From: Lachnospiraceae bacterium
GTDB lineage: Bacteria > Bacillota > Clostridia > Lachnospirales > Lachnospiraceae
Assembly: GCA_021770755.1 (NCBI GenBank)
Contig: JAETQI010000048.1
Coordinates: forward strand, 1 to 46,296
Length of the DNA stretch: 46,296 nt
Direction of reading: 5' to 3'
In this document: in pieces, positions 1,716 to 33,796 of the stretch
Numbering within the stretch: the first letter of the stretch is position 1
Layout: each line of letters opens with the position of its first letter
The notes under the pieces: generated by a model
Seen by the model: the letters and a program-made list of their open reading frames with translations, nothing else
The model's database searches: none
What the model was told of the DNA's origin: nothing
Program-made: the position numbers and the translations under genes

Positions 1716-3293
1716 TCAATTGTTTTCCCGAAGCCTATCCATGTCCAGCATCTTGAGTCCAGCGGCCAGTTCCACCAGCTCTGCCTGCAGACAAAACAGA
1801 TTCACCGCAGTGGTGGCAAATTCCAGTATCACATTGAGGGCGATCGTGACCGCTATGGCCTCCATAGGTATTTTGAGCTGGACAAACAAAATGGTGTAGC
1901 AGGTCAGTGCACCGCCGGGAATAGGAGGCGCCGCCACTGCCAGCACAATGGATATGAGAAATGCCGTAGCCAGCCACACCGGTGAAACCGTCACCCCGTA
2001 AATTTCCGCCATGCAAAATCCAACCGCCAGAAACATAACGGAAACTCCCGGCATAAAGATTGCCTGTCCCAGGGGAACGCCGAAATTGACGATCCTCCTG
2101 TCAATCCCAAGATCCTTTTCACAGCACTCCATGTTCACCCCGAAAGCTGCCGAGGAAGATGCCGTAGTCAGTGCGATCAGAAAGGTGGGCATCATTTTTT
2201 TCAGCAGTACCCGCGGATGCACCTTCCTCCCCGCACATACCAGCACAAGATATGCTGCCAGAAGGATCACATCCCCCATAAGCATTGCCAGGATCAGTTT
2301 ATATGCAGAAAGAAATACAGAAAAATCATTGCCAAGTATCATATTTAAGATACTTCCGAATACAAACAGCGGCACAAAGGAACTGACCGCCTCCATGATA
2401 AGCTGTACGATATAGTTAGACTGCTCCACCATGGATGCGGCAGCCGTGGCTTTGTTCCCCAGGATCAGCATTGCCATGCCGATCAGGACTGCAACGAAAA
2501 TGATCTGCAGGGGATTCCCCTCTGTAAAGGGCGTAAAAAAATTTCCCGGAACAATGTCCAGAACCATTTGAAACAGTTCGGAAAAGTCAAACTTCCCCCC
2601 GCCTCCGGCCTTAAGGGAAAAAAGAGGCATAACTGCCCCGCAGCCAGCCAGCGTCAGAAGAACTGTCATCAGCATAAAGCGCCCGATCATCCTTTTTCCA
2701 ATCCTGCCCATAGTAGCCATATCCCCGATACTGTATATTCCCCAGGCAACCGAAAGGAACACCATAGGTCCCGCAATGGCCGACAAAAGCCCCATAAAAC
2801 GGTTAAACACAGGACCGATAAGATCCTCTGCAAGAAAGGCACGGACACCCTCCGGCAGGAAACGGCACAGCCCGCCGCACAAAAGGGCAAGAGCCACTGA
2901 CAGAGCCATGGAAGCCATCTGAGAACGCTTTTTCTTTTTCGGCGTAAACAAGATCAGATTTTTACCGTTTTTGTACTGCCACACAGGGGCGACACCCATA
3001 TTGGAAAGCAGCCCCCTAAGCACATCACTCTGTTCTTCCTCGCCCGTGTCAAAGGGGTCAAACTGCTCTCCCTTAAGGGAAAGTTCCAGGCGAATGCGCT
3101 GAAAGCGTCTGGTATGCTTCTGCACAAACACTGCCTCCGTGCCGAATGTTTCCTGATACTTTAACAGGGTTTCCTCCACTGCAAGGCGTATCTGGAGAAT
3201 ATTTCTTCCGTCTACGCCCCATTCCTCAAGATTTTTTTCCGCAAGAGCGCTTGCCCTGGCAATATTTTCATTACTAAGTGTCCATTTTTCCAT
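1716..3293 (-). CDS. Dicarboxylate/amino acid:cation symporter with an N-terminal GHKL-like domain
   Basis: A 525-residue membrane protein. From about residue 125 it is a DAACS-family symporter (GltP/SstT-like): multiple hydrophobic segments, a serine-rich reentrant loop (TTASSSAAFGVNMECC) and the later PPIPGGAL and NVILEFATTAVN blocks. It should import acidic or neutral amino acids or dicarboxylates with Na+ or H+. The first ~117 residues are an addition not usual for the family. They contain IRLAVEETLLKY and a strand ending in GEQFDPF, resembling the HATPase_c_2 (SpoIIAB/RsbW-like) fold, but with the N-box Asn missing. A similar domain ends the neighbouring ATPase. The start ATG has AAGGATAATA upstream. 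It is the last gene of the minus-strand operon, 11 bases after the ATPase gene. The symporter call is firm; the N-terminal call is fold-level inference. Confidence 0.85.
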   Translation of the reverse strand: MEKWTLSNENIARASALAEKNLEEWGVDGRNILQIRLAVEETLLKYQETFGTEAVFVQKHTRRFQRIRLELSLKGEQFDPFDTGEEEQSDVLRGLLSNMGVAPVWQYKNGKNLILFTPKKKKRSQMASMALSVALALLCGGLCRFLPEGVRAFLAEDLIGPVFNRFMGLLSAIAGPMVFLSVAWGIYSIGDMATMGRIGKRMIGRFMLMTVLLTLAGCGAVMPLFSLKAGGGGKFDFSELFQMVLDIVPGNFFTPFTEGNPLQIIFVAVLIGMAMLILGNKATAAASMVEQSNYIVQLIMEAVSSFVPLFVFGSILNMILGNDFSVFLSAYKLILAMLMGDVILLAAYLVLVCAGRKVHPRVLLKKMMPTFLIALTTASSSAAFGVNMECCEKDLGIDRRIVNFGVPLGQAIFMPGVSVMFLAVGFCMAEIYGVTVSPVWLATAFLISIVLAVAAPPIPGGALTCYTILFVQLKIPMEAIAVTIALNVILEFATTAVNLFCLQAELVELAAGLKMLDMDRLRENN

Positions 3294-3304
3294 TATTATC
3301 CTTC

Positions 3305-4417
3305 TTATATACTGATGATCAAACGGTTACATCCCTCTACAAATGTATGTTCTATACCTCTGGACATCCCTTTTATCATCCTGCCGGACAAATCTTCTTT
3401 CGTGCCAAAGGGATGATAAGCAGCGCCTCCGTAGGAGAAACACATCTGTGCCAGATTCTCCCGCTCACTGTATTCCACATCCAGGGAAATATCCATACCG
3501 CCCGCTTCCCCGGCTGCCGGCAGGAGTTTTTGCATCAGCACTTCCTCCGCCGTAAGCTGCATGGCGTAAATCTGCCTCTGGGAAAGCTGCTGCCTGCGCC
3601 CGAACTCCTCAAGCTGTGTCATAAAAGCCGGGAAGTCAAAATCACGTGAGATCTTTTCCACATGGAGCACCTTAAGCTGCCGGATGAATATCCGGGTCCT
3701 CTCCCTTTTGGGGTGCTCAAAAATCTGCTCCGGTGTTCCATCCTCATAAATTTCTCCCTGATCCATATAAAAGATCCTCGTGGACACATCCCGGGCAAAC
3801 TTCATCTCATGGGTCACGATCATCATGGTCATTCCCTGCCCTGCCAGCCTGCGGATCACGGAAAGCACTTCGCCCACCATAGTCGGGTCTAAAGCCGAGG
3901 TCGGCTCGTCAAAGAGAATGATCTCCGGCTGCATCGCCACCGTCCGGGCAATCGCTGCACGCTGCTTCTGTCCCCCGGAGAGTTCATCCGGGTAGGCAAG
4001 GGCTTTGTCCCCAAGTCCTATGGTGCGCAAAAGTTCCATTCCCCTGTCATAAGCTTCCTGCCGGCTCCTGCCAAGGAGATCCACCTGGCCCATCATGATA
4101 TTTTCAATAATGGTCTTGTGGGCAAACAGGTTAAAGGACTGGAATACCATACCCATCTTCCGCCGCACCAGATTTACCTTGCATTTCTTATCCGTGGTCG
4201 TCACGCCGTCCACCACGATCTCGCCTCCTGTGGGCGTCTCCAGAAGGTTGATACAGCGCAGCAGGGTTGATTTTCCGGTGCCTGACGGACCGATAATGGA
4301 AATCACTTCTCCCTTTTTGATCTCCACGCTCACATCCTGTAAAGGAGTTACATTGGGATATTCCTTGCGCAGATGCCTGATGGAAATGATGCTCCGGTCT
4401 TCCTGTTTCTCTGTCAT
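3305..4417 (-). CDS. Amino-acid ABC transporter ATPase with a C-terminal GHKL-like extension
   Basis: A GlnQ/HisP-type nucleotide-binding subunit. Residues ~10-250 hold Walker [10 protein letters not shown] (~43), Q-loop VFQSFNLF, signature LSGGQKQR, Walker [13 protein letters not shown] and the H-loop VTHEM, so it should be an active ATPase for the permease encoded just upstream. Residues ~252-370 are extra. They include [14 protein letters not shown] and later strands ending AAYHPF and LIISI, which parallel the N-terminal domain of the adjacent symporter (EE-x-L-x-x, then G...HPF or DPF). The ATG at 4417 overlaps the permease stop as TGATG, implying coupled translation; a GTG one codon earlier is possible. 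The ordinary family length is about 245 residues, so the extension is unusual and may be regulatory. Confidence 0.9.
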
Positions 4418-6681
4418 CACATGGACACCCCCTTTACGCTCCGTTTATTCCGTTTCGGCAAAACTTCCCTTTCTGCAAAGGAAAGGGCTGCCGTCATCAC
4501 ATTGGCAACGGCAAAATAGATCACCGCCGTCACGATCAGCGGGAAAAACGCCTCCATGGTACGCGACCGGATAATATCAGACACCTTGGTCAGATCCTGT
4601 ACGGCGATATATCCTGCCACGGAAGTCATTTTTACCATGGAAATAAACTCGCCTTTCAGCACAGGAATAAAATTTCCGGCAGCCTGTGGAAATACAACCT
4701 TAAAAAAGGTCTGGCTTCTGGTATAACCCATGGCAAGGGCTGCCTCCTGCTGTCCTTTATCCACGGTTTCTATACCTGTACGCATCATCTCCGATGAGTA
4801 GGCCGCAAAGTTAATGGAAAATCCAATGACCGCAACCAAAATCTCGGAAATATCCACCGACCCGAAAATCCCGTAATACAGGATCATCAGGAGGACCACA
4901 ACTGGCATTCCCTGCACCACACGGACAAAGATCCCTCCAAGATCCTGTACGGGCCTGCAATTCATCCGCCGCAGCATACAGATCCCAAACCCAAGGCCAA
5001 GTCCGAAAATGCCCGAACAGACAGAGATCAGTATGGTGACCCCCAGTCCCTGTAAGATCAGCCGCCACCGTCCCTCCACCACAAAAGTGCTCTTAAAGCT
5101 GTCCTCCAGACCTGCCAGGAAACCTTTCTTCTGCACTGCGCCGCCTGCATCACGCATCAAAAGCACCATGGCTGATTCATAGTGGGTATCCGCAAAGTCC
5201 ACCTTTTTCGCCCGTTCTTCCGTAATGGACATGCTTCCGCTGACCACATCTGCCTTTCCGCTTTCCAGAGAGGCGATCAGGGAGGCAAATTCACAGTCTG
5301 CCATTTCCACCTTCCAGTCCAATTCCCGTGCAACCAAAAGCATCAGATCTATCTCAAGCCCCAGCGGTTCTCCGCCGCTTCCAAGATAGGTCATCGGCTC
5401 ATGGGTGCTGTCATGGTAATACCGGATCGTCCCGTTCTCTCCCGGCCAGTCCTGCTCCGTCAGTATTTTTATGCTTTCGTCCGCTCCAAGCCATTTTTTC
5501 TTTAGCGCCTCAATGGTTCCGTCCTCTTTCAGTCTTGCAAGAACGCCGTTAAACTGCTCCCTGAGAGGGCTTCCCTTGGGAAAAGCATATCCGTACTGAT
5601 CCAGAATCACCGGCTCCTCAAAGATTTTCAGTCCTTCATTCTTCGCCACCGCAAGCTGCGCCAGCGGTTCGTCCAGCGCCCCCGCATCCACACGGCCTGC
5701 CTTTAGGGCTGCAACAATATCCGGTACAGAATTGTAGTAGGAGAAATCATCTGCGTCTTCGATCACTTCCTGCAAGAGCTTATCGTAAACTCCTCCGCTC
5801 AGGGCGGCAAACCTGGCCCCTTCAAAATCGGAAAGCGTCTCGTATTTTTCCCCTGACTGCGCGCCGCCCTCCTGCGGCGCCCTCACCATAACGGCTGTCT
5901 CCGAAGGATAAACGCAGTCGGAAAACGCAATATGCTTCCGCCTCTCCTCGGTAGCGTTCAGATTCGCCATAATACAGTCAATGTCCCCTGCCTGTGCCGC
6001 CGCAATGATTCCGTCATAGTCATAAACCTTGATCTCCACTTCCGCATTTAACCATGCCCCAAAGCGGTAGATCAGCTCCACATCGTATCCTGTCAGCGTC
6101 GTCCCCTCATAGTAGCTGAAAGGCTGGACCGTTCCCGTGGTCCCCACCTTAAGCTTACAGTCCGGTGTCTGGGGCATGGCTATTTCCGGCATGGTTCCTT
6201 CCGCGCGGCTGACCCACCGGCCGTACATCTCATCCAGCGTTCCCTCTGCCTTTGCCTGGGCAAGAAACTGGTTCACCTTATCCTCTAAGTTTTCAATCCG
6301 GCTTTTGGGTGAGATTCCCACAGCCACATCCATGCTCTCCCCCAGATTTTCGTCTAAGATCTTCACATCCTCAAGCCCGCTTGCTATGGCAAACTCCATC
6401 ATCACCCGGTCGTAAACAAACCCGTCCAGCTTTCCCTGGGAAATGGCAAGATACCCTGAAGCATTGCCGGAAAATGTTTTATGCTCCGCCTCCGGCAGAT
6501 ATTTTTCCGCCATATACATACCTGCCCCGCCCTCCGGCACACCGATGGTATATGCGGGATCGTTGAGCTGCTCTATGGAGGTGATCGTTTCGTTTTTCTT
6601 ATCTTTACACCCCCAGAGGCAAAGCGTTCCCAAAAGGATAACGATAAAAAGGCAGGGTCTTTTCTTGTCACAATTTGTCAT
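4417..6681 (-). CDS. Fused amino-acid substrate-binding/permease ABC protein
   Basis: A 754-residue fusion. ATG 6681 follows GGAGGATCATT and opens a lipoprotein-like signal (hydrophobic stretch, then LWGC at Cys25); upstream in-frame codons lack a signal, so this start is preferred. Residues 33-157 look like lobe II plus the C-terminal return of a polar amino-acid binding protein ([27 protein letters not shown]). Residues 176-399 are a complete SBP_bac_3 domain ([32 protein letters not shown]). Residues 418-510 are lobe I only ([22 protein letters not shown]). Residues ~530-745 are a HisM/GlnP-type permease with the [14 protein letters not shown] coupling loop. It pairs with the ATPase encoded next. 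Binding-domain/permease fusions are known in GlnPQ of lactic acid bacteria, but the half-whole-half arrangement is odd. Confidence 0.9.
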
Positions 6682-6776
6682 AATGATCCTCCATGCTGTC
6701 AACATCTGCAAATCTGCATACAGGCACAAATTTACGGTTTGCCCGGTATTCATAAGAAGATTGCCAGACGACCATG

Positions 6777-7082
6777 CTAACCGAGAAATTTGTTGATGCC
6801 TGAAGGGTTGTAATTCAGATTTTCTATCCAAGTTTTAGCGTCTTTATACCACTGAGATTCCAGGACTTCCCGGACTTTCTCTTCGTCCGCTTTTACAGGG
6901 GACACCTGCCGGGAATTCTCATCCACAATGGGGTGTCTGTTCATCTCTAGTCTGGTCAGTCCTCCAACCGTCTCATCCACTCCGCCTGCTGCGCCTTCCA
7001 GCTCTGCATCATTTAACGCCAACGCTTCTCCTTTCAGCAGACTTTCCTTCATTTCCACTCTCTCCACTGCTTTTTTCTTCAT
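6777..7082 (-). CDS. Putative secreted peptide precursor with double-glycine leader (copy A)
   Basis: A 101-residue precursor starting MKKKAVERVEMKESLLKG, with leader end ALNDAELEGAAGG, a double-glycine site of the type cut by C39 peptidase exporters. The start is fixed by GGAGG six bases upstream. The predicted ~67-residue product is polar, has no Cys, and contains several acidic and basic residues and two Trp, so it does not resemble a lanthipeptide or a hydrophobic class II bacteriocin. It lies directly downstream of two NHLM-type exporter genes and upstream of the amino-acid transporter genes. Its leader and 5' region are a near duplicate of copy B (7201-7566). The precursor role is inferred from leader and context; mature function is unknown. 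Confidence 0.7.
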   Translation of the reverse strand: MKKKAVERVEMKESLLKGEALALNDAELEGAAGGVDETVGGLTRLEMNRHPIVDENSRQVSPVKADEEKVREVLESQWYKDAKTWIENLNYNPSGINKFLG

Positions 7083-7099
7083 TTTTCCTCCATTCCTGT
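6981..7099 (-). repeat. Duplicated leader/ribosome-site segment, unit A
   Basis: About 119 bases covering the ribosome site and leader codons of copy A match 7465-7584 with roughly six substitutions and one base of indel (about 94% identity by eye). Similarity continues weakly upstream, where both have a small hairpin built from TGTC and GGACA arms. The product-coding parts do not align, so either only the leader was duplicated or the mature parts diverged far faster. Confidence 0.85.
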
Positions 7100-7200
7100 T
7101 TTGTGTCCATCTTTTCAGACACATCACGACTTCATATTTTTCTGTTTATTTATACGTCCTCTTCCGTCAATGCCTCCAAATGAGGTTTTTTCCAAAAGCG

Positions 7201-7566
7201 CTAAAAGTCAAAAGGGCTTCCAGACCTGCTTGCTTCCTGGTCCAATGAATTTTGAAGTCTTTTCAATTCGTTCATCAATTCCTCCCCATCTATATCATCA
7301 AAACCAGCAGGGGGCTGGATTGGCTTCCATTCTGGGGACTGCGGCTGGGTTTTTATCTCATCACCGCGCCTCCTCCTGGTATCTATCCTGTCCTCTATAG
7401 AAAGCCCAGGCGTTTTTGGATTCAGCAGACTTTCGGCGAACCGTTCTTCAAACGTCATACCCCCTCCGCCTGCTGCACATTCCAGCTCTGCATCATTTAA
7501 TGCCAACGCTTCTCCTTTCAGCAAACTTTCCTTCATTTCCACTTTCTCTACTGCTTTTTTCTTCAT
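7201..7566 (-). CDS. Putative secreted peptide precursor with double-glycine leader (copy B)
   Basis: A 121-residue precursor. The leader MKKKAVEKVEMKESLLKG...ALNDAELECAAGG differs from copy A at only two positions within the ~34-residue leader. ATG 7566 is preceded by GGAGG; an upstream in-frame start gives extra residues that lack a ribosome site. The predicted ~85-residue product starts with GG-MTFEER, is rich in Arg, Asp, Glu, Gln and Pro, has no Cys, and shows no clear relation to the copy A product. The change from Gly to Cys just before AAGG is the only Cys in the protein and lies in the leader. It follows the exporter gene at 7657 by about 90 bases on the same strand, so it is probably co-transcribed and exported by the C39 transporter. 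Confidence 0.7.
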   Translation of the reverse strand: MKKKAVEKVEMKESLLKGEALALNDAELECAAGGGGMTFEERFAESLLNPKTPGLSIEDRIDTRRRRGDEIKTQPQSPEWKPIQPPAGFDDIDGEELMNELKRLQNSLDQEASRSGSPFDF

Positions 7567-7584
7567 TTTTTCCTCCATTCCTGT
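7465..7584 (-). repeat. Duplicated leader/ribosome-site segment, unit B
   Basis: Partner of 6981-7099. The upstream hairpin here is TGTCCG, a short loop, then CGGACA (about 7589-7606), just before the ribosome site. Conservation of leader and 5' region with divergence of the mature portion is the pattern expected if the exporter recognises the leader. Confidence 0.85.
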
Positions 7585-7656
7585 GTCCGTCCCTTCGGAC
7601 ACATCACATCTGTTTTTTGTTTCTGTCTTTGTTTCTATCTATTGATACAAAGAAGT

Positions 7657-9867
7657 TCATGGAAGGGCCTTGCCATCCAGTCTCTGCCTTGCGATCAATC
7701 CCGCAAAGTATCCGTTCTTTTCCATGAGTTCCTCATAATTACCATCCTCTATGATCTTCCCTTTCTCCAGCACAATGATCCTGTCACACTGGCGGATCGT
7801 GGACAGTCTGTGGGCGATCACAATCCGGGTACATTTCAGTCCGTCCAGGGACTGTGACACCTTTTTCTGGGTCAGATTGTCCAGGGCGCTGGTGGCTTCG
7901 TCCAGCAGGAGGATCTTTGGTCTGGGCGCTATTGCCCTTGCGATCAGCAGACGCTGTCTCTGCCCCCCTGAGATCCCGCCCTGCCCTTCGGAGATCACGG
8001 TATGCATTCCCATAGGCATACGCCGGATATCCTCCGCAATACCGGCAAGCTCCGCCGCTTCCCAGGCTTCCTCCATGGTAAGATGAGGAGCGCAGATCGT
8101 GATATTGGAAAAAATATCCCCTGAAAACAGCCTGCCGCCCTGCATCACCACACCGATCCTGCTCCGCAGGGACTTTAGATCCATACCGGCAATGTCCCTG
8201 CCGTCATAGTAAATGGCGCCCTTCCCAGGCGTCTCAAACCCAAGCAGAAGCCTGAGCAGGGTAGACTTCCCACACCCACTGGCGCCAACCAATGCCACAT
8301 ACTGACCCGGCCTTATTTTCAGGGAAAGGTCATCCACCACAAGTGGCATGCTCTCCTGATAACGAAAGGATACATTGCTAAACTCTATGCCGCCCGAAAG
8401 GCGCGTCACCATCTGCTTGCCCTCCGCCACCTCCGGCGACGTTTCCAGAATGGGTTTCGCCATCTTAAGGATGGGACGAAGCTGTGCCACAGACAGTACG
8501 ATCCCTGCCAGGGAGGAAAAGGCGCCGGAAACCATCCCATAAGCGGTATTGAAAGCGTAATAATCCGCCACGGAAATCCCGCTTTTTACCGCAGTATAAT
8601 ACATGATAACCGTTCCACATAAAGAAATCGCCGTCAGCAGTACGCTGTTTATCTTTAAGAACAGCGGCGGGCTGTAGGCAAGCCTTGCCCCTTCTGCATA
8701 AATCCTGCCCCACCGGGCAAATGCGCGCTTCTCCGCGCCGGAAAGCCTGATTTTCTGGATGCCGCTGATCAGGGAATAGGTCATACCGCTTTCCTTCGCG
8801 CCAATTTCCATCTGCCTTTCGCTGACCCGTATCTGCATCAGCGCAGAAACCACCGAAAACACCGCCGTCACCAGTATGATCACCAAAGCCGGAACCACCA
8901 GCGCCGGGGCGTAGGTAAAAATCTGGGTAATGTATACCAGTGAGAATATCGCCGTAAGGCCTGTGGAAAATACCAGAGATACCAGCATGGAACAAAGGGT
9001 ATAGATGTTCCCCGCCCTGCCTGCCAGTTCTCCCGGGCTGTATTTCCGAAAAAAATCCGTGGGAAGGGACAAAATGCGCATCATCACTGCCGCCTGCACC
9101 TGAACCCCCATCTTGGTCCCGATGCGCTGCATCAGCATAGACCTGACCGCCGCCGCCAGCAGGGTGCTGACCCTTAAGCATACCAGAAAAAAGGTGATGG
9201 ATAGAAACAGGCGCATATTGCCGCTTGCTGTCACCTGGGAAAAGATGATATGGTTCAGCTTCGGTGAAAGCATTCCCAGTAACGTAATCCCCAGCGCCGC
9301 CGCCAGAAACATCCCCACGTCAAAGAGCGACAATGTCCCGGCGATATATCCCATCAGCTCCGGTATCCTTATGGGCTTCACAGGAAGCGGCTTATAAAAG
9401 CACAGGGCCTCTTCCTCTATCCCTTTCTTTGTATTCCTGTCAAGCTTTACCCGCCTGCCGGAAGTCTCATCCAGATAATGATAGACGCCTGTCCTGTCCG
9501 GGATCAGGGCGACTACCCTGCCATCCTCTTTCCTGGTTCCCAGCATTGCCCCAAAGGCATCCCGGTACCACTCCCCCTCCAGTTTCACCCTGCGCCGCAT
9601 AATGCCGCAGGGGCGCAGCAGATATTCAAGCTGGTCATTGATGTCCTTTATATCTTCCGGTATCTCCGAAGTCTTCGCATGATAAAATTTCAATATTTCA
9701 TCTATGGCGTTTTTCGTCTGTATCCTGTCGTCCTTCATGGCGGCCAGAATCCGTGTTCCCAGCACAGCTCCCGCTATGCCCACCAGGGAGTCCTCCAGCA
9801 TCTCGTCATCGCTGTACATCCGCTGCCGGATCTGTTCGTCAAACCATCCCATATCCATCTTCTCCAT
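7657..9867 (-). CDS. NHLM-type peptide-export ABC protein without peptidase domain
   Basis: A 736-residue half-transporter. The first ~165 residues are a soluble domain with no C39 peptidase motif, as in the second ABC protein of NHLM bacteriocin systems (the TIGR03797-type family, recalled). An ABC transporter membrane domain with about six segments follows (~170-460), then an ATPase domain with Walker A GASGCGKST, signature ISGGQRQR, Walker B ILLLDEATSALD and H-loop IAHRL. It should pair with the C39 protein encoded 15 bases upstream to secrete leader peptides. The first codon, ATG 9867, has only a weak ribosome site. ATG 9852 behind GGAGAAG is an alternative start that would remove five residues. 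Confidence 0.88.
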   Translation of the reverse strand: MEKMDMGWFDEQIRQRMYSDDEMLEDSLVGIAGAVLGTRILAAMKDDRIQTKNAIDEILKFYHAKTSEIPEDIKDINDQLEYLLRPCGIMRRRVKLEGEWYRDAFGAMLGTRKEDGRVVALIPDRTGVYHYLDETSGRRVKLDRNTKKGIEEEALCFYKPLPVKPIRIPELMGYIAGTLSLFDVGMFLAAALGITLLGMLSPKLNHIIFSQVTASGNMRLFLSITFFLVCLRVSTLLAAAVRSMLMQRIGTKMGVQVQAAVMMRILSLPTDFFRKYSPGELAGRAGNIYTLCSMLVSLVFSTGLTAIFSLVYITQIFTYAPALVVPALVIILVTAVFSVVSALMQIRVSERQMEIGAKESGMTYSLISGIQKIRLSGAEKRAFARWGRIYAEGARLAYSPPLFLKINSVLLTAISLCGTVIMYYTAVKSGISVADYYAFNTAYGMVSGAFSSLAGIVLSVAQLRPILKMAKPILETSPEVAEGKQMVTRLSGGIEFSNVSFRYQESMPLVVDDLSLKIRPGQYVALVGASGCGKSTLLRLLLGFETPGKGAIYYDGRDIAGMDLKSLRSRIGVVMQGGRLFSGDIFSNITICAPHLTMEEAWEAAELAGIAEDIRRMPMGMHTVISEGQGGISGGQRQRLLIARAIAPRPKILLLDEATSALDNLTQKKVSQSLDGLKCTRIVIAHRLSTIRQCDRIIVLEKGKIIEDGNYEELMEKNGYFAGLIARQRLDGKALP

Positions 9868-9882
9868 CGCTTCAATCTGTTT

Positions 9883-12081
9883 TCAGTCATTGGAAACCAG
9901 TTCGGTATAAGCGCCGCCCTTTGCATACAGTTCCTCATGGGTTCCCCGCTCCACCACTTTTCCGTGATCCATTACGATGATCTCGTCACAGTCCCGGATC
10001 GTAGACAGGCGGTGGGCAACCACGATACAGGTAATTCCCCGGTCCTTAATGGACCTGACTACCTCATACTCTGTCCTTGCATCCAGCGCCGAGGTGGCTT
10101 CATCCATAATAATAATGGTCGGGTCCTGGGCAAGCACTCTGGCGATTTCCATTCGCTGGCGCTGTCCCCCGGAAAAGTCCCTGCCGTCCTGGCTGATGCG
10201 GTAGGAATACCCGCCATCCCTCTGCATAATGTCCTCATGGAGCCTTGCGTCCCGGGCTGCCATGATGACCTCGAAATCCTCAATGGATTTGTCCCACATT
10301 CTGATATTGCCGGCTATGGTATCTTCAAACAGAATAATATCCTGGTCAACCACTGCCAGCGAGCCAGTAAATACATTTCTGTCGATCGCGCTCACAGGCT
10401 TCCCGTCAAAAAGGATTTCCCCCTTCCATGGCTGATACAGACCGGAAAGCAGTTTGGAAATGGTGGATTTTCCGCAGCCGGAAGCTCCCACAAGAGCCAC
10501 ACGGCTTCCCGGTTTTAAAGTCAGGTCAAAATCTTCTATCAGCGGTTCCGAAAGCCTGGAATAACCGAACGTAACCTTTTTCATCTCCACGCTGCCGGAG
10601 AGCTTCCTGTACTCCCCAGCCCCTTCCTTTGCCTGCACATACTCCCTGTGCCCACAGCAGACATCGGAAGGGTACTCCATCACATCTTCGATCCGCTCCA
10701 TCTGGGTACGCATCTCCTGAATACTCTGACCGGCCGCAATTAATTTGGCGGTCGGAGACATAAAGGAAGAAAGGAACCCCTGAAATGCCATGATCATGCC
10801 CACTGTAAAACTTCCCTGCATGGTCAGATATACCCCCAGCATCAGCACTGCCACCCCCGTAAGGGAAGATACAAGGGCGGGAAGAAGTCCCAGATACTGG
10901 TTCAGCCTGGCATACTTTACCTGCTGGGTGTTGACACTTGCCTGATACCCTGCCCACTTTTCAAAATAGCCGTTTTCCGCACCGTTGGCTTTGATCGTCT
11001 CTATCATTTCAATACCGGATACCGTTGCACCTGACAGCTTACCGCTATCCCGCATCTGTACCCGTGTAATGTTGATGCGTTTTCTGGCTATCATCTGGGA
11101 CAGCCCAAGATTGCACAGGATGGACAGCACGCCCACAAAGGTAAGCAGGGGGCTGTAGCGCAGCATGACTGCCAGATAAAACACCATCATTGCAATATCG
11201 ATCAAAAGAGGGGCAAACAGGTTCACAAGGCTGCCTGATGCCGAGGCGTTCATCCCCTGCCGCTGCTGGATATCCCCTGCCATGCGCTGGGAAAAAAACT
11301 CCATGGGCAGGTGAAGTACTTTCCACAGGTAGGAAGAGGAACCTGTAACTGCAAATCTGCCGTATATTTTCAGGGAATAAACCGTTAACAGAAAAGAGAC
11401 CAAAAGCCGCACTGCCGCGTATCCCATAAATATGCCCACAAAAGGCAGGAGCCAGTCAGGATTCTTCCCTGTCAGCAGCCTGTCCATAAAAATCCTTGGA
11501 AAAACCGAAGCCACAATTCCAAGAAGGGAACTGATGACGGTTGCAAGGATCACACAGACCACCGCCTCCCCTGCTCCTGCCATCCGCTTTTTCACAAATC
11601 CTGCAACACTTCTGGGTCTGCCGCCTGGAGTAAATTCCTCCCCCGGCTCAAAAAACAGGCAACCCCCCGTAAAGGACTGGTCGAAAGTTTCCATGGAAAC
11701 CGTATAATTCCCTCTTGCAGGATCATTTAAACAGGCTTTATTCCCTTTAAAGCCGTTCAATACCACAAAATGATTAAAATTCCAGTGGATAATACAGGGA
11801 AAGATCCCACCCCGCCTTAACGCGTCCGGCTCAAACCGAAAACCTTTTGCCGTCAGCCCATAGCTGCGGGCTGCCAGCAGCAGATTTTTGGCATTAGAAC
11901 CGTCTCTCGACACTCCGCAGTCCGCCCTCACCTGCTCTAAAGGAATCCATTTGCCATAATACGCCAGTATCATGGCAAGGGACGCCGCGCCGCACTCCAA
12001 GGCTTCCATCTGCATGATCACCGGCACCTTTGCATACCCTCTGCCCACCGGACGTTTCTGTGCATTTTTATGTAAAATCAT
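9883..12081 (-). CDS. NHLM-type C39 peptidase/ABC peptide exporter
   Basis: A 732-residue protease-exporter. The N-terminal C39 domain has the catalytic Cys30 in MEALECGAASLAMIL, His104 in HFVVLNGF and Asp120 in LNDPARG. A six-segment membrane domain follows (~160-440), then an ATPase domain with GASGCGKST, FSGGQRQR, IIIMDEATSALD and VAHRL. Such proteins cut leaders after a GG or GA site while exporting the peptide. The two downstream precursors carry AAGG sites, which fits. It lies between the HlyD-like gene and the second ABC gene with short gaps, so it is probably in one transcript. Architecture and length match NHLM micro ABC1 proteins. Confidence 0.92.
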   Translation of the reverse strand: MILHKNAQKRPVGRGYAKVPVIMQMEALECGAASLAMILAYYGKWIPLEQVRADCGVSRDGSNAKNLLLAARSYGLTAKGFRFEPDALRRGGIFPCIIHWNFNHFVVLNGFKGNKACLNDPARGNYTVSMETFDQSFTGGCLFFEPGEEFTPGGRPRSVAGFVKKRMAGAGEAVVCVILATVISSLLGIVASVFPRIFMDRLLTGKNPDWLLPFVGIFMGYAAVRLLVSFLLTVYSLKIYGRFAVTGSSSYLWKVLHLPMEFFSQRMAGDIQQRQGMNASASGSLVNLFAPLLIDIAMMVFYLAVMLRYSPLLTFVGVLSILCNLGLSQMIARKRINITRVQMRDSGKLSGATVSGIEMIETIKANGAENGYFEKWAGYQASVNTQQVKYARLNQYLGLLPALVSSLTGVAVLMLGVYLTMQGSFTVGMIMAFQGFLSSFMSPTAKLIAAGQSIQEMRTQMERIEDVMEYPSDVCCGHREYVQAKEGAGEYRKLSGSVEMKKVTFGYSRLSEPLIEDFDLTLKPGSRVALVGASGCGKSTISKLLSGLYQPWKGEILFDGKPVSAIDRNVFTGSLAVVDQDIILFEDTIAGNIRMWDKSIEDFEVIMAARDARLHEDIMQRDGGYSYRISQDGRDFSGGQRQRMEIARVLAQDPTIIIMDEATSALDARTEYEVVRSIKDRGITCIVVAHRLSTIRDCDEIIVMDHGKVVERGTHEELYAKGGAYTELVSND

Positions 12082-12142
12082 CTGCCATCTCCCATGTGTA
12101 CATGCCCATGTTGCATGACAATCATTTGATCAGTTAATTTGA

Positions 12143-12616
12143 TCAGTTAAATAGAAAAGCGGCCGGCGCAATACATTCCACAACCACTTCTGTCTCATAA
12201 ACGCCGTCCGCAAGTCCCGTATCAGCCACAGCCGCATAAACCCATTCCCCCTCTGCAAAGCCGCCTATATGCATGGCGTAAGGCGTAAGCAGACCGGAAG
12301 CCTCCATGGGCTCATCGGAAACTGATAAAATGGGATACCCTTTTCCCTTTATCTCCACCTTCATCCCGGCGGCGATCTGTTCCCTGTCGGATTCCCTTAT
12401 ATAGCAGAAAAGGGTTCCGTCCTTTACCACGGCAGGGGCTTTTATTACCGTGTCCAGCCGGCCGAAAATCCCCCAGACACACACACCTGCCAGCAAAAGA
12501 AGCACTGCCCCCATCACCATCCACATACCTGGACTTGTGACTCTGATATAATCCTCTAACTGCTCGGGGGAAGACACCCGTTCCATGCTCTTCTCCCTGA
12601 AAATCTTTTTTTCCAT
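12143..12616 (-). CDS. Short HlyD-like NHLM secretion adaptor
   Basis: A 157-residue membrane-anchored protein: a cytosolic stretch beginning MEKKIFREKSMERVSSPEQL, one transmembrane helix (~31-51), and an extracytoplasmic part starting GRLDTVIKAPAVV that resembles the barrel-sandwich of HlyD-family adaptors. It fits the NHLM system secretion-protein family by its start and position just before the C39 exporter gene. It lacks the long coiled-coil hairpin of full-size HlyD proteins, plausible in a cell without an outer membrane. AAGGATAAAG lies just upstream of ATG 12616. Its stop lies in a 13-base direct repeat (TTAACTGATCAAA twice, around 12122-12148). Confidence 0.75.
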   Translation of the reverse strand: MEKKIFREKSMERVSSPEQLEDYIRVTSPGMWMVMGAVLLLLAGVCVWGIFGRLDTVIKAPAVVKDGTLFCYIRESDREQIAAGMKVEIKGKGYPILSVSDEPMEASGLLTPYAMHIGGFAEGEWVYAAVADTGLADGVYETEVVVECIAPAAFLFN

Positions 12617-12867: not shown

Positions 12868-13629
12868 TTACGAATTTTGAATAATGGAAAACTGTGTGGA
12901 ATCCAGAAATTCCTGTATGAGCTGGCGCACCCGCTCGGGGGACTCATACGGCCTGCAGAACGAGAAATCCTGTGACAGATCGTCAATGTCCTCCATCGCC
13001 TGTTTCACCTCCACCATGGTCTGTAAAGGAATCTCAGAGGCCGTCATAAAGTCCAGCTTCTGCGGATTCAGCCGTCGGCTCTGGATCGCATAATTCAGCC
13101 GGTCTCTGCATCTGCATTTGCCGTTTCCATACTCCCCGCAGTACTGTCCCAGAAATTCCGCCATCTTTTTGCGCACCCTGGAAAGCCGCTGCCGGTACGC
13201 TTCCGGCGTCATCCCCAGAATATCCCCCGCAATGCGGCTGTCCACTTTGAACATCGTTCCCAATATGAAGATACATCTGCTCTCCGTGTCAAGGCACTGC
13301 AGCATCACGTTGGTGCACGACATCTTGAGCTCCTCCGCCAGGATCCCCTTCTCCACATTCTGCGTCAGATCCGGCAGATCCTGCACTTTTGCGTTTTCTA
13401 TGTCATTCCCATAGTACTCGAAGCTGAGCGGAAACTGAGCAAACATGTGCTTCCTGTAATCTCTCAGATGATTGACGGCGATGCCAAAGACCCATGTCGT
13501 AAATGCGCTCTCCCCTCTGAAAGAGGACAGATGCGTGATCATCCTGAGCAGGATATCCTGTGTGGCGTCCTCCGCGTCCGCAAAAGTGCCGAGCATTCGC
13601 AGGGACAGGTTAAATACAATGTCCTGCAC
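12868..13629 (-). CDS. ECF-type RNA polymerase sigma factor with Cys-bearing tail; start region damaged
   Basis: A sigma-70 family factor of Clostridia type. Region 2 shows NLSLRMLGTFADAEDATQDI and FTTWVFGIAVNHLRDYRK; region 4 shows IFILGTMFKVDSRIAGDILG then YRQRLSRVRKKM. The C-terminal tail has CGEYGNGKCRCRDRLNYAI and ends QFSIIQNS, as in related gut Firmicutes. In frame, the first usable start is GTG 13629, which cuts into region 2.1. The residues before it (AGDKKALETLVAGV) belong to the family but have no start codon ahead of the permease stop at 13689. An ATG at 13690, overlapping that stop as ATGA, encodes MKGYLL in the neighbouring frame. Removing one base would join it to TAGDKKALETL. 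So the gene is probably frameshifted or mis-sequenced near its start. It may control the peptide-export operon. Confidence 0.8.
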   Translation of the reverse strand: MQDIVFNLSLRMLGTFADAEDATQDILLRMITHLSSFRGESAFTTWVFGIAVNHLRDYRKHMFAQFPLSFEYYGNDIENAKVQDLPDLTQNVEKGILAEELKMSCTNVMLQCLDTESRCIFILGTMFKVDSRIAGDILGMTPEAYRQRLSRVRKKMAEFLGQYCGEYGNGKCRCRDRLNYAIQSRRLNPQKLDFMTASEIPLQTMVEVKQAMEDIDDLSQDFSFCRPYESPERVRQLIQEFLDSTQFSIIQNS

Positions 13630-33178: not shown

Positions 33179-33796
33179 ATGGCAGGGTTCGTCTGGGAAC
33201 TCATGACAACTGTCATCAGCGCGTTTATCATCACAACGATCGTGGATATCATCGTGATGGGGAGCTATCTGTTAAAGATCGCGCCATCGTGCGAAGTGTC
33301 CCGATATATGGTCCGCAAAGAAAACCGTATTGACATACAGAAGGGAAATCAGTGCTCGGGCTATGCCGCCGCGTACCTTTTGCGTCACTATGATATCCTG
33401 GCAGACGGGGAGGAGATCTATCGGAAAATGCCCCACAAAGCCTCCGATGGGTGTGTTCCGCCCAAGGGAGTCAGGAAGGTGCTTGAAAGCTATGGATTTC
33501 GTGTGAGATACTGCGCCGGAAACCTAAATGCCCTAAAAAGGGAAGTATGTAAAGGAGCACCCGTCATTGTCTTTATCAGATCCCGGGCAGGCAGGAACGG
33601 GCTCCATTTTGTTCCTGTTGTCGGGTTTGATGAGGACAATCTATATCTTGCAGATTCAGCCGCGGGATCCGTCAACTGCAGTGAGGGCGCATATAATAGA
33701 AGGATCAGCACGAAAGACTTTCTGATCCTCTGGAATACCGCGATGTTGAAAATGCCATTGTATACGCATACGTTTTATGCGGTCGACCGCAAATGA
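33179..33796 (+). CDS. Membrane-anchored stand-alone C39-like cysteine peptidase
   Basis: A 205-residue protein: one N-terminal transmembrane helix (~10-33), then a papain-fold C39 domain with GNQCSGYAAAYLLRHY (Cys59), GLHFVPVVGFD (His143) and LADSAAG (Asp159). Unlike the exporters earlier in the window it has no ABC domains. Stand-alone peptidases of this kind may process secreted peptides or resemble bacteriocin-exporter accessory proteins. GAGGAGGTGGGACA precedes the ATG. It converges on an ABC exporter gene lacking a peptidase domain (33868-35544), 71 bases away. Cooperation is plausible but they are on opposite strands. Confidence 0.75.
   Translation: MAGFVWELMTTVISAFIITTIVDIIVMGSYLLKIAPSCEVSRYMVRKENRIDIQKGNQCSGYAAAYLLRHYDILADGEEIYRKMPHKASDGCVPPKGVRKVLESYGFRVRYCAGNLNALKREVCKGAPVIVFIRSRAGRNGLHFVPVVGFDEDNLYLADSAAGSVNCSEGAYNRRISTKDFLILWNTAMLKMPLYTHTFYAVDRK

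Follow-up and report, generated by a model that had tools for sequence, protein, structure and literature searches.

Degenerate anti-sigma-factor-like domains on probable amino-acid importers of a Lachnospiraceae bacterium, and a possible partner switch acting on transport

The window considered here, i.e., the whole analysed stretch of 46,296 nucleotides of Lachnospiraceae bacterium DNA (assembly GCA_021770755.1, contig JAETQI010000048.1), encodes on its minus strand an NHLM-type peptide exporter followed by a trio of transporter genes: a fusion of substrate-binding protein (SBP) and permease, an ATP-binding cassette (ABC) ATPase and a symporter. The ABC system and the symporter are probable amino-acid importers, and the pair carries a worn-down domain of the anti-sigma-factor type. 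Partner switching is known chiefly as a form of sigma-factor control, with a few other outputs besides, and the same kind of switch may here control nutrient uptake directly. That the trio belongs among transporters bearing an RsbW/SpoIIAB-like pseudo-kinase domain, and that a partner switch acts on their transport, is a reading for which we regard the odds as about evenly balanced. The features on which it draws are the following.

12143..12616, minus strand: short HlyD-like adaptor of 157 amino acids (aa), with which the apparent operon opens (sub-threshold match to TIGR03794, positions 1-51 only, E 1.5e-8)
9883..12081, minus strand: NHLM ABC1, C39 peptidase/permease/ATPase (TIGR03796, PF03412)
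7657..9867, minus strand: NHLM ABC2, permease/ATPase (TIGR03797)
7201..7566, minus strand: double-glycine precursor-like peptide 1, 121 aa, predicted to be cut after AAGG
6777..7082, minus strand: double-glycine precursor-like peptide 2, 101 aa, sharing 32/34 leader residues with peptide 1
6651..6692, minus strand: junction upstream of the SBP signal peptide, DNA match to related locus L170 (86% over 42 bp)
4417..6681, minus strand: SBP/permease fusion, 754 aa (PF00497, PF00528)
3305..4420, minus strand: polar amino-acid type ABC ATPase, 371 aa (PF00005)
3308..3670, minus strand: degenerate RsbW/SpoIIAB-like domain at the ATPase C-terminus, aa 251-371 (hhalign)
1716..3293, minus strand: SDF (dicarboxylate/amino acid:cation) symporter, 525 aa (PF00375)
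2919..3293, minus strand: degenerate RsbW/SpoIIAB-like domain at the symporter N-terminus, aa 1-125 (hhalign, AlphaFold2 model, structural matches)

A preliminary description of this DNA had spoken of built-in regulatory domains without naming them, and two such domains are indeed present, at residues 251-371 of the ATPase and 1-125 of the symporter, although neither scores above any Pfam or NCBIfam cut-off. The ATPase domain aligned with RsbW in hhalign at 98.1% (E 1.2e-13), which establishes its homology to that family, and the symporter domain at 96.5%. When PDB sequences were searched with the ATPase domain, the top match was RsbW (6m36), weakly at E 0.053 and at E 0.0022 once six MATE domains had been included in the profile. 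HATPase_c_2 was recognized at E<=0.1 in 11 of the 27 members of the ATPase-extension family, the window's own not among them. The AlphaFold2 (AF2) model of the symporter domain has a predicted local distance difference test score (pLDDT) of 86.0 and a predicted template modelling score (pTM) of 0.81, and the top matches in a structural search with it were anti-sigma factors; the model thus argues for a GHKL/Bergerat fold of the anti-sigma type.

In the kinases RsbW and SpoIIAB, an N-box asparagine and a G1-box aspartate serve catalytic and Mg-ATP roles. Both residues are kept in all of the RsbW domains that were aligned, whether stand-alone or fused to SpoIIE (14/14 for each residue), whereas symporter-type domains (n=21, including one from an ABC exporter) have the asparagine in 1/21 cases and the aspartate in 0/21, and ATPase-type domains (n=27) have them in 5/27 and 0/27, respectively. 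The window's domains have neither residue, the two positions being occupied by K and L in the symporter and by Q and Y in the ATPase. Kinase activity in these two domains is unlikely because the N-box asparagine and G1 aspartate have been lost, and we do not class them as kinases; they appear to derive from RsbW or to work like it. Fusion to transporters and the loss of both residues set them apart from the anti-sigma kinases RsbW, SpoIIAB and UsfX.

Genes for the partners of such a switch lie near a minority of the relatives, though near those of the ATPase type more often than expected. SpoIIE-type phosphatase genes occur within 10 kb of 5/26 ATPase-domain loci as compared with 0.73 expected (P 5e-4), and within 20 kb of 8/26 as compared with 1.42 (P 3e-5), in a density test that assumes uniform placement, uses rounded genome sizes and counts several loci per genome. 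At least one STAS, SpoIIE or RsbW gene was found in 6/25 ATPase loci of the family, in 6 of the 13 loci from a class-wide search (i.e., every match of at least 50 bits outside those fetched earlier) and in 9 of the 25 loci with symporter relatives; the search for neighbours used BLAST with one query per family over limited stretches, and "absent" here means not found in those stretches. For the ATPase type, proximity to partner-switching genes recurs in several Clostridia families (f4, f17, f38 and f56). The fullest runs are these.

L182: symporter, cyclic-nucleotide (cNMP)-binding-like protein, SBP/permease, ATPase, STAS, MATE fusion, GH3-like enzyme, SpoIIE, RsbW
L184 (record labelled as an uncultured Spirochaetales bin): RsbW on the opposite strand, then STAS, SBP/permease, ATPase, SpoIIE, symporter
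L205: STAS, SpoIIE-RsbW, symporter, SBP-permease-ATPase

With all frames accounted for, none of the three runs contains a sigma factor, a further difference from the RsbW, SpoIIAB and UsfX systems. The serine of the LSS(A/S)GLR motif is invariant in the 8/8 STAS proteins aligned, that of the window's genome included, and would by analogy with SpoIIAA and RsbV be the site of phosphorylation. The window's genome has genes for STAS, SpoIIE and RsbW proteins and for a MATE fusion, all on another contig, C46.

Several other genes accompany these loci. Positions 48001-88000 of C46 (L060 and L061) encode a 3066-aa protein, the MATE-HATPase fusion, an acyltransferase-like protein, STAS, a non-ribosomal peptide synthetase (NRPS) of the C-A-T-reductase type (1420 aa), SpoIIE, RsbW and a cNMP-binding-like protein. 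The 3066-aa protein resembles, at ~30%, the C-A-T-reductase NRPSs of L165 and L177-L180, and importer genes lie within a cluster similar to that of C46 in L165 and L178-L180. A cNMP-binding protein (PF00027 4e-18 at L163:11633-12091) follows the symporter in several loci with the trio, and is often followed in turn by another symporter of that type.

Within the family, 22/397 genomes (the window's genome counted) encode relatives of the ATPase domain. At the class level 30/391 genomes match the profile at E 1e-5, and in 14/391, from nine families (f1, f4, f14, f17, f18, f20, f38, f56 and f67), a match scoring 50 bits or higher lies in a frame of the length of an ATPase or of an SBP-permease-ATPase. 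Weaker class matches fall in frames of ~540-610 aa, which is the length of the MATE fusions, and also in short or longer frames; the three of MATE-fusion length that were compared (G000, G520 and G720) are MATE-like, and the 594-aa MATE protein on C46 contains HATPase_c_2 at 70.4 bits. A symporter-type domain stands at the N-terminus of a 705-aa ABC exporter (L186:9995-12109; PF00664, PF00005), and L047:7454-7864, where a contig ends, may be part of a second such exporter.

Under the reading that we favour, a true RsbW kinase would phosphorylate the STAS protein and a SpoIIE-type phosphatase with a sensor region would dephosphorylate it; in one of its phosphorylation states the STAS protein would dock on the pseudo-kinase domains of the transporters, altering import through the ABC system and the symporter as well as efflux by MATE proteins with the same domain. 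The output of the switch would thus be transport rather than a sigma factor. We infer the docking, its control by phosphorylation and the direction of its effect, as we do the substrates and the cytoplasmic side of the domains. Somewhat more tentatively, Clostridia could be said to use partner switching as a general post-translational control of transport, with no fewer than four unrelated kinds of transporter (SDF symporters, polar amino-acid ABC ATPases, MATE exporters and ABC exporters) bearing fused pseudo-RsbW domains and served by the same STAS/RsbW/SpoIIE switch with no sigma factor. If so, a signal sensed by a phosphatase would be passed directly to nutrient uptake and efflux in common gut bacteria, and a function would emerge for transporters whose additional domains are so far unexplained. 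No title on transporters fused to RsbW-like domains came up in the literature searched on the topic, most subscription papers and all preprints lying outside its scope.

Several observations weigh against this proposal, beyond the assumptions of the density test given above. The ATPase extension of the window lacks a Pfam match of its own, the symporter domain reaches HATPase_c_2 only at E 0.066, and its profile found no anti-sigma factor among PDB sequences, the rows at E 0.35-0.58 being unrelated proteins. Partner-switching genes are absent from the window's contig, from the neighbourhoods of 19/25 ATPase-extension loci of the family and 7/13 of the class, and from 15/16 family loci with N-extended symporters (L031-L046, from 200 genomes; the exception is L031). 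Since 15 of these 16 lack them, clustering of the symporter with such genes is mainly a trait of the close relatives of the window's gene.

The main competing explanation, which we consider unlikely, treats the transporters as co-sensors, the fused domain binding or releasing STAS according to the state of transport, such that solute flux would set a switch whose output is elsewhere. The clustering of genes and the homology of the domain suit it equally well, and the RsbW domains nearby retain their N-box and G1 residues, so that a separate output is possible; the absence of a sigma factor from L182, L184 and L205 speaks against it, but the output could be encoded elsewhere. A little less probable again is that the domains are stand-alone allosteric modules for a small molecule or some protein other than STAS, with no partner switching involved and the clustering a product of shared ancestry among a few loci. 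Such modules would agree with the vanished ATP-site residues and with the many loci that have no partner-switching neighbours, above all the 15/16 N-extended symporters of the family, but not readily with an ATPase-type clustering that exceeds expectation and is seen in f4, f17, f38 and f56.

Control of transport by a partner switch would have precedents of a partial kind. SpoIIAA/SpoIIAB and RsbV/RsbW offer an analogy for STAS binding according to phosphorylation state (PMC8256260). In MlaFB, the STAS protein MlaB is bound to the ABC ATPase MlaF, and STAS phosphorylation is discussed there as a possible control (PMC7367683). The likeness is that an ABC ATPase is acted on by a STAS protein, as is proposed here; the STAS protein of MlaFB binds the ATPase domain directly, whereas the ATPase of the present system bears an RsbW-like domain, and genes for a kinase and a phosphatase lie close by in some relatives, unlike MlaFB. 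SiaABCD of Pseudomonas aeruginosa is a related switch with a non-sigma output, which is the diguanylate cyclase SiaD (PMC8457831, PMC7647112) and not a transporter as proposed here.

The layout of the window invites a different idea, and the preliminary description had taken it up by coupling a secreted signalling or scavenging peptide functionally to amino-acid uptake. The eight genes that it reported are confirmed; they occupy 12616..1716, all on the minus strand, with gaps in gene order of 61, 15, 90, 118 and 95 bp, a 4-bp overlap and 11 bp. The single apparent operon of that description accords with the lack of minus-strand terminator-like sites in the gaps between the genes. Over the whole region, promoter-like sites (9 observed, 11.2 expected from shuffled sequence) and terminator-like sites (16 observed, 11.9 +- 3.4 expected) are close to chance, promoter-like sites within the operon are likewise not above chance level, and a single transcription unit is a plausible prediction. 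A Sigma-70 family protein (PF04542 1.3e-11) is encoded upstream of the HlyD-like gene at 12868-13629; its frame runs upstream of its GTG, and no ATG was seen there.

Comparison of neighbourhoods in both directions gave no support to coupling of exporter and importers, which we think quite improbable. The full trio occurs in 15/25 symporter-relative loci, and NHLM genes were found in 0/15 of these complete loci in the stretches examined (upstream of the SBP gene, <2 kb in L165, L170, L178 and L180 and at least 3 kb in the other 11); L205, one more locus with the parts of the trio, has none either. Conversely, the SBP/permease or the ATPase extension, and thus the ABC importer, is present in 0/48 other NHLM ABC2 loci (L031 and L062-L109 minus L069, 3.7-20 kb each, from the 397 family genomes), and the symporter in 1/48 (L031, from G157). 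In the closest relative, G421, which is of the same genus and has a symporter 82% identical, the trio stands beside STAS and NRPS genes instead. The preliminary description had itself held that the idea would fail if the transporters were never next to the exporter in other genomes, and this is nearly the case. Among the 25 loci with symporter relatives, L183 alone has NHLM genes; it appears to coincide with contig C58 of G157 and has the symporter only (53% identical), adjoining STAS, a MATE fusion, SpoIIE and RsbW in addition to the NHLM genes. The tight single-strand order with its terminator-free gaps, the symporter beside NHLM genes in G157 and the missing TATAAT described below favour coupling, but the counts of 0/15 and 0/48 and the orphan status of peptide 1 tell against it. 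The NHLM exporter appears, from these comparisons, to be a chance neighbour of the importers, and gene neighbours in one genome can evidently mislead when the recurrent partners lie elsewhere.

The junction suggests how the trio came to be there. In the 330 bp that precede the SBP gene, TATAAT is found at varying distances in 13/13 relatives (12 trio loci and L185), as compared with 2.3 expected by chance, and it is absent from the window. A small Cys-rich open reading frame (ORF) precedes the SBP gene in 7/13 of these relatives; in the window, the ATG and ~10 codons of the SBP gene match the start of that ORF and are joined to the SBP signal peptide. The DNA match to L170 ends 11 bp upstream of the ATG, 85 bp past peptide 2. 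The simplest reading is that a deletion or rearrangement placed the trio behind the exporter operon, in which case it would have lost its own promoter region and would probably be transcribed from the NHLM operon.

The SBP/permease fusion (PF00497 4.8e-58, PF00528 2.8e-20) has 754 aa from its ATG and 804 aa from an upstream TTG. Fusion of SBP_bac_3 to a permease is characteristic of GlnP-type polar amino-acid ABC importers, and the window's protein shares it, but its SBP halves seem to be circularly permuted and in tandem: PF00497 positions 100-130 are followed by 1-131, then 2-94 and then the permease, and in a single-SBP relative (L182:12373-13095) positions 97-131 are followed by 7-94. The AF2 model of the SBP part (pLDDT 46.6) was uninformative and was set aside, so the proposed permutation is based on profile positions. 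The best NCBIfam matches of the ATPase (PF00005 1.7e-34) are TcyN and GlnQ, both below cut-off, and the symporter belongs to the SDF (DAACS) family (PF00375 9.3e-62, 209.7 bits as compared with a cut-off of 27.9).

The exporter resembles NHLM/NHLP export systems in that ABC1 (TIGR03796, 918.8 bits, cut-off 853.3; C39 peptidase PF03412 1.2e-33) and ABC2 (TIGR03797, 737.3 bits, cut-off 709.4) both score as members of its equivalog families. It is unlike them in three respects: the operon encodes no peptide-modifying enzyme, as the preliminary description had observed; the precursors match no family; and the short HlyD-like adaptor that it had also recognized resembles TIGR03794 only over the first 51 of 421 positions, at 34 bits and well short of the cut-off of 156.2. 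Both peptides start at an ATG preceded by GGAGG and have 34-residue leaders with two mismatches between them and ELE(C/G)AAGG at their ends. Neither peptide has a Pfam or NCBIfam match at E<=0.1, and the leader is a short double-glycine (GG) one, not of the NHLP or Nif11 type. The predicted products of 87 (peptide 1) and 67 residues (peptide 2) lack Cys, as had been stated, the one Cys being in leader 1. Apart from the leader of peptide 2, peptide 1 has no convincing relatives in the 397 family genomes, where only two weak matches (E 0.003 and 0.008) were found, and phmmer with the leader and both cores found nothing at E 10 among the small ORFs of the fetched NHLM loci.

Elsewhere in the window, a 205-aa protein with a hydrophobic start (33179-33796) resembles a stand-alone C39-type peptidase. 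At least one STAS, SpoIIE or RsbW gene was present in 14/48 NHLM loci in the stretches examined, and a wider link between peptide export and partner switching may exist. L183 combines an NHLM exporter, the full partner-switching set and a GG peptide with a core rich in C-x-C and Gly, whose leader we take by its resemblance to be Nif11-like, and it also encodes a radical SAM enzyme look-alike, a CPBP-like protein and a sigma factor resembling the extracytoplasmic function (ECF) type.

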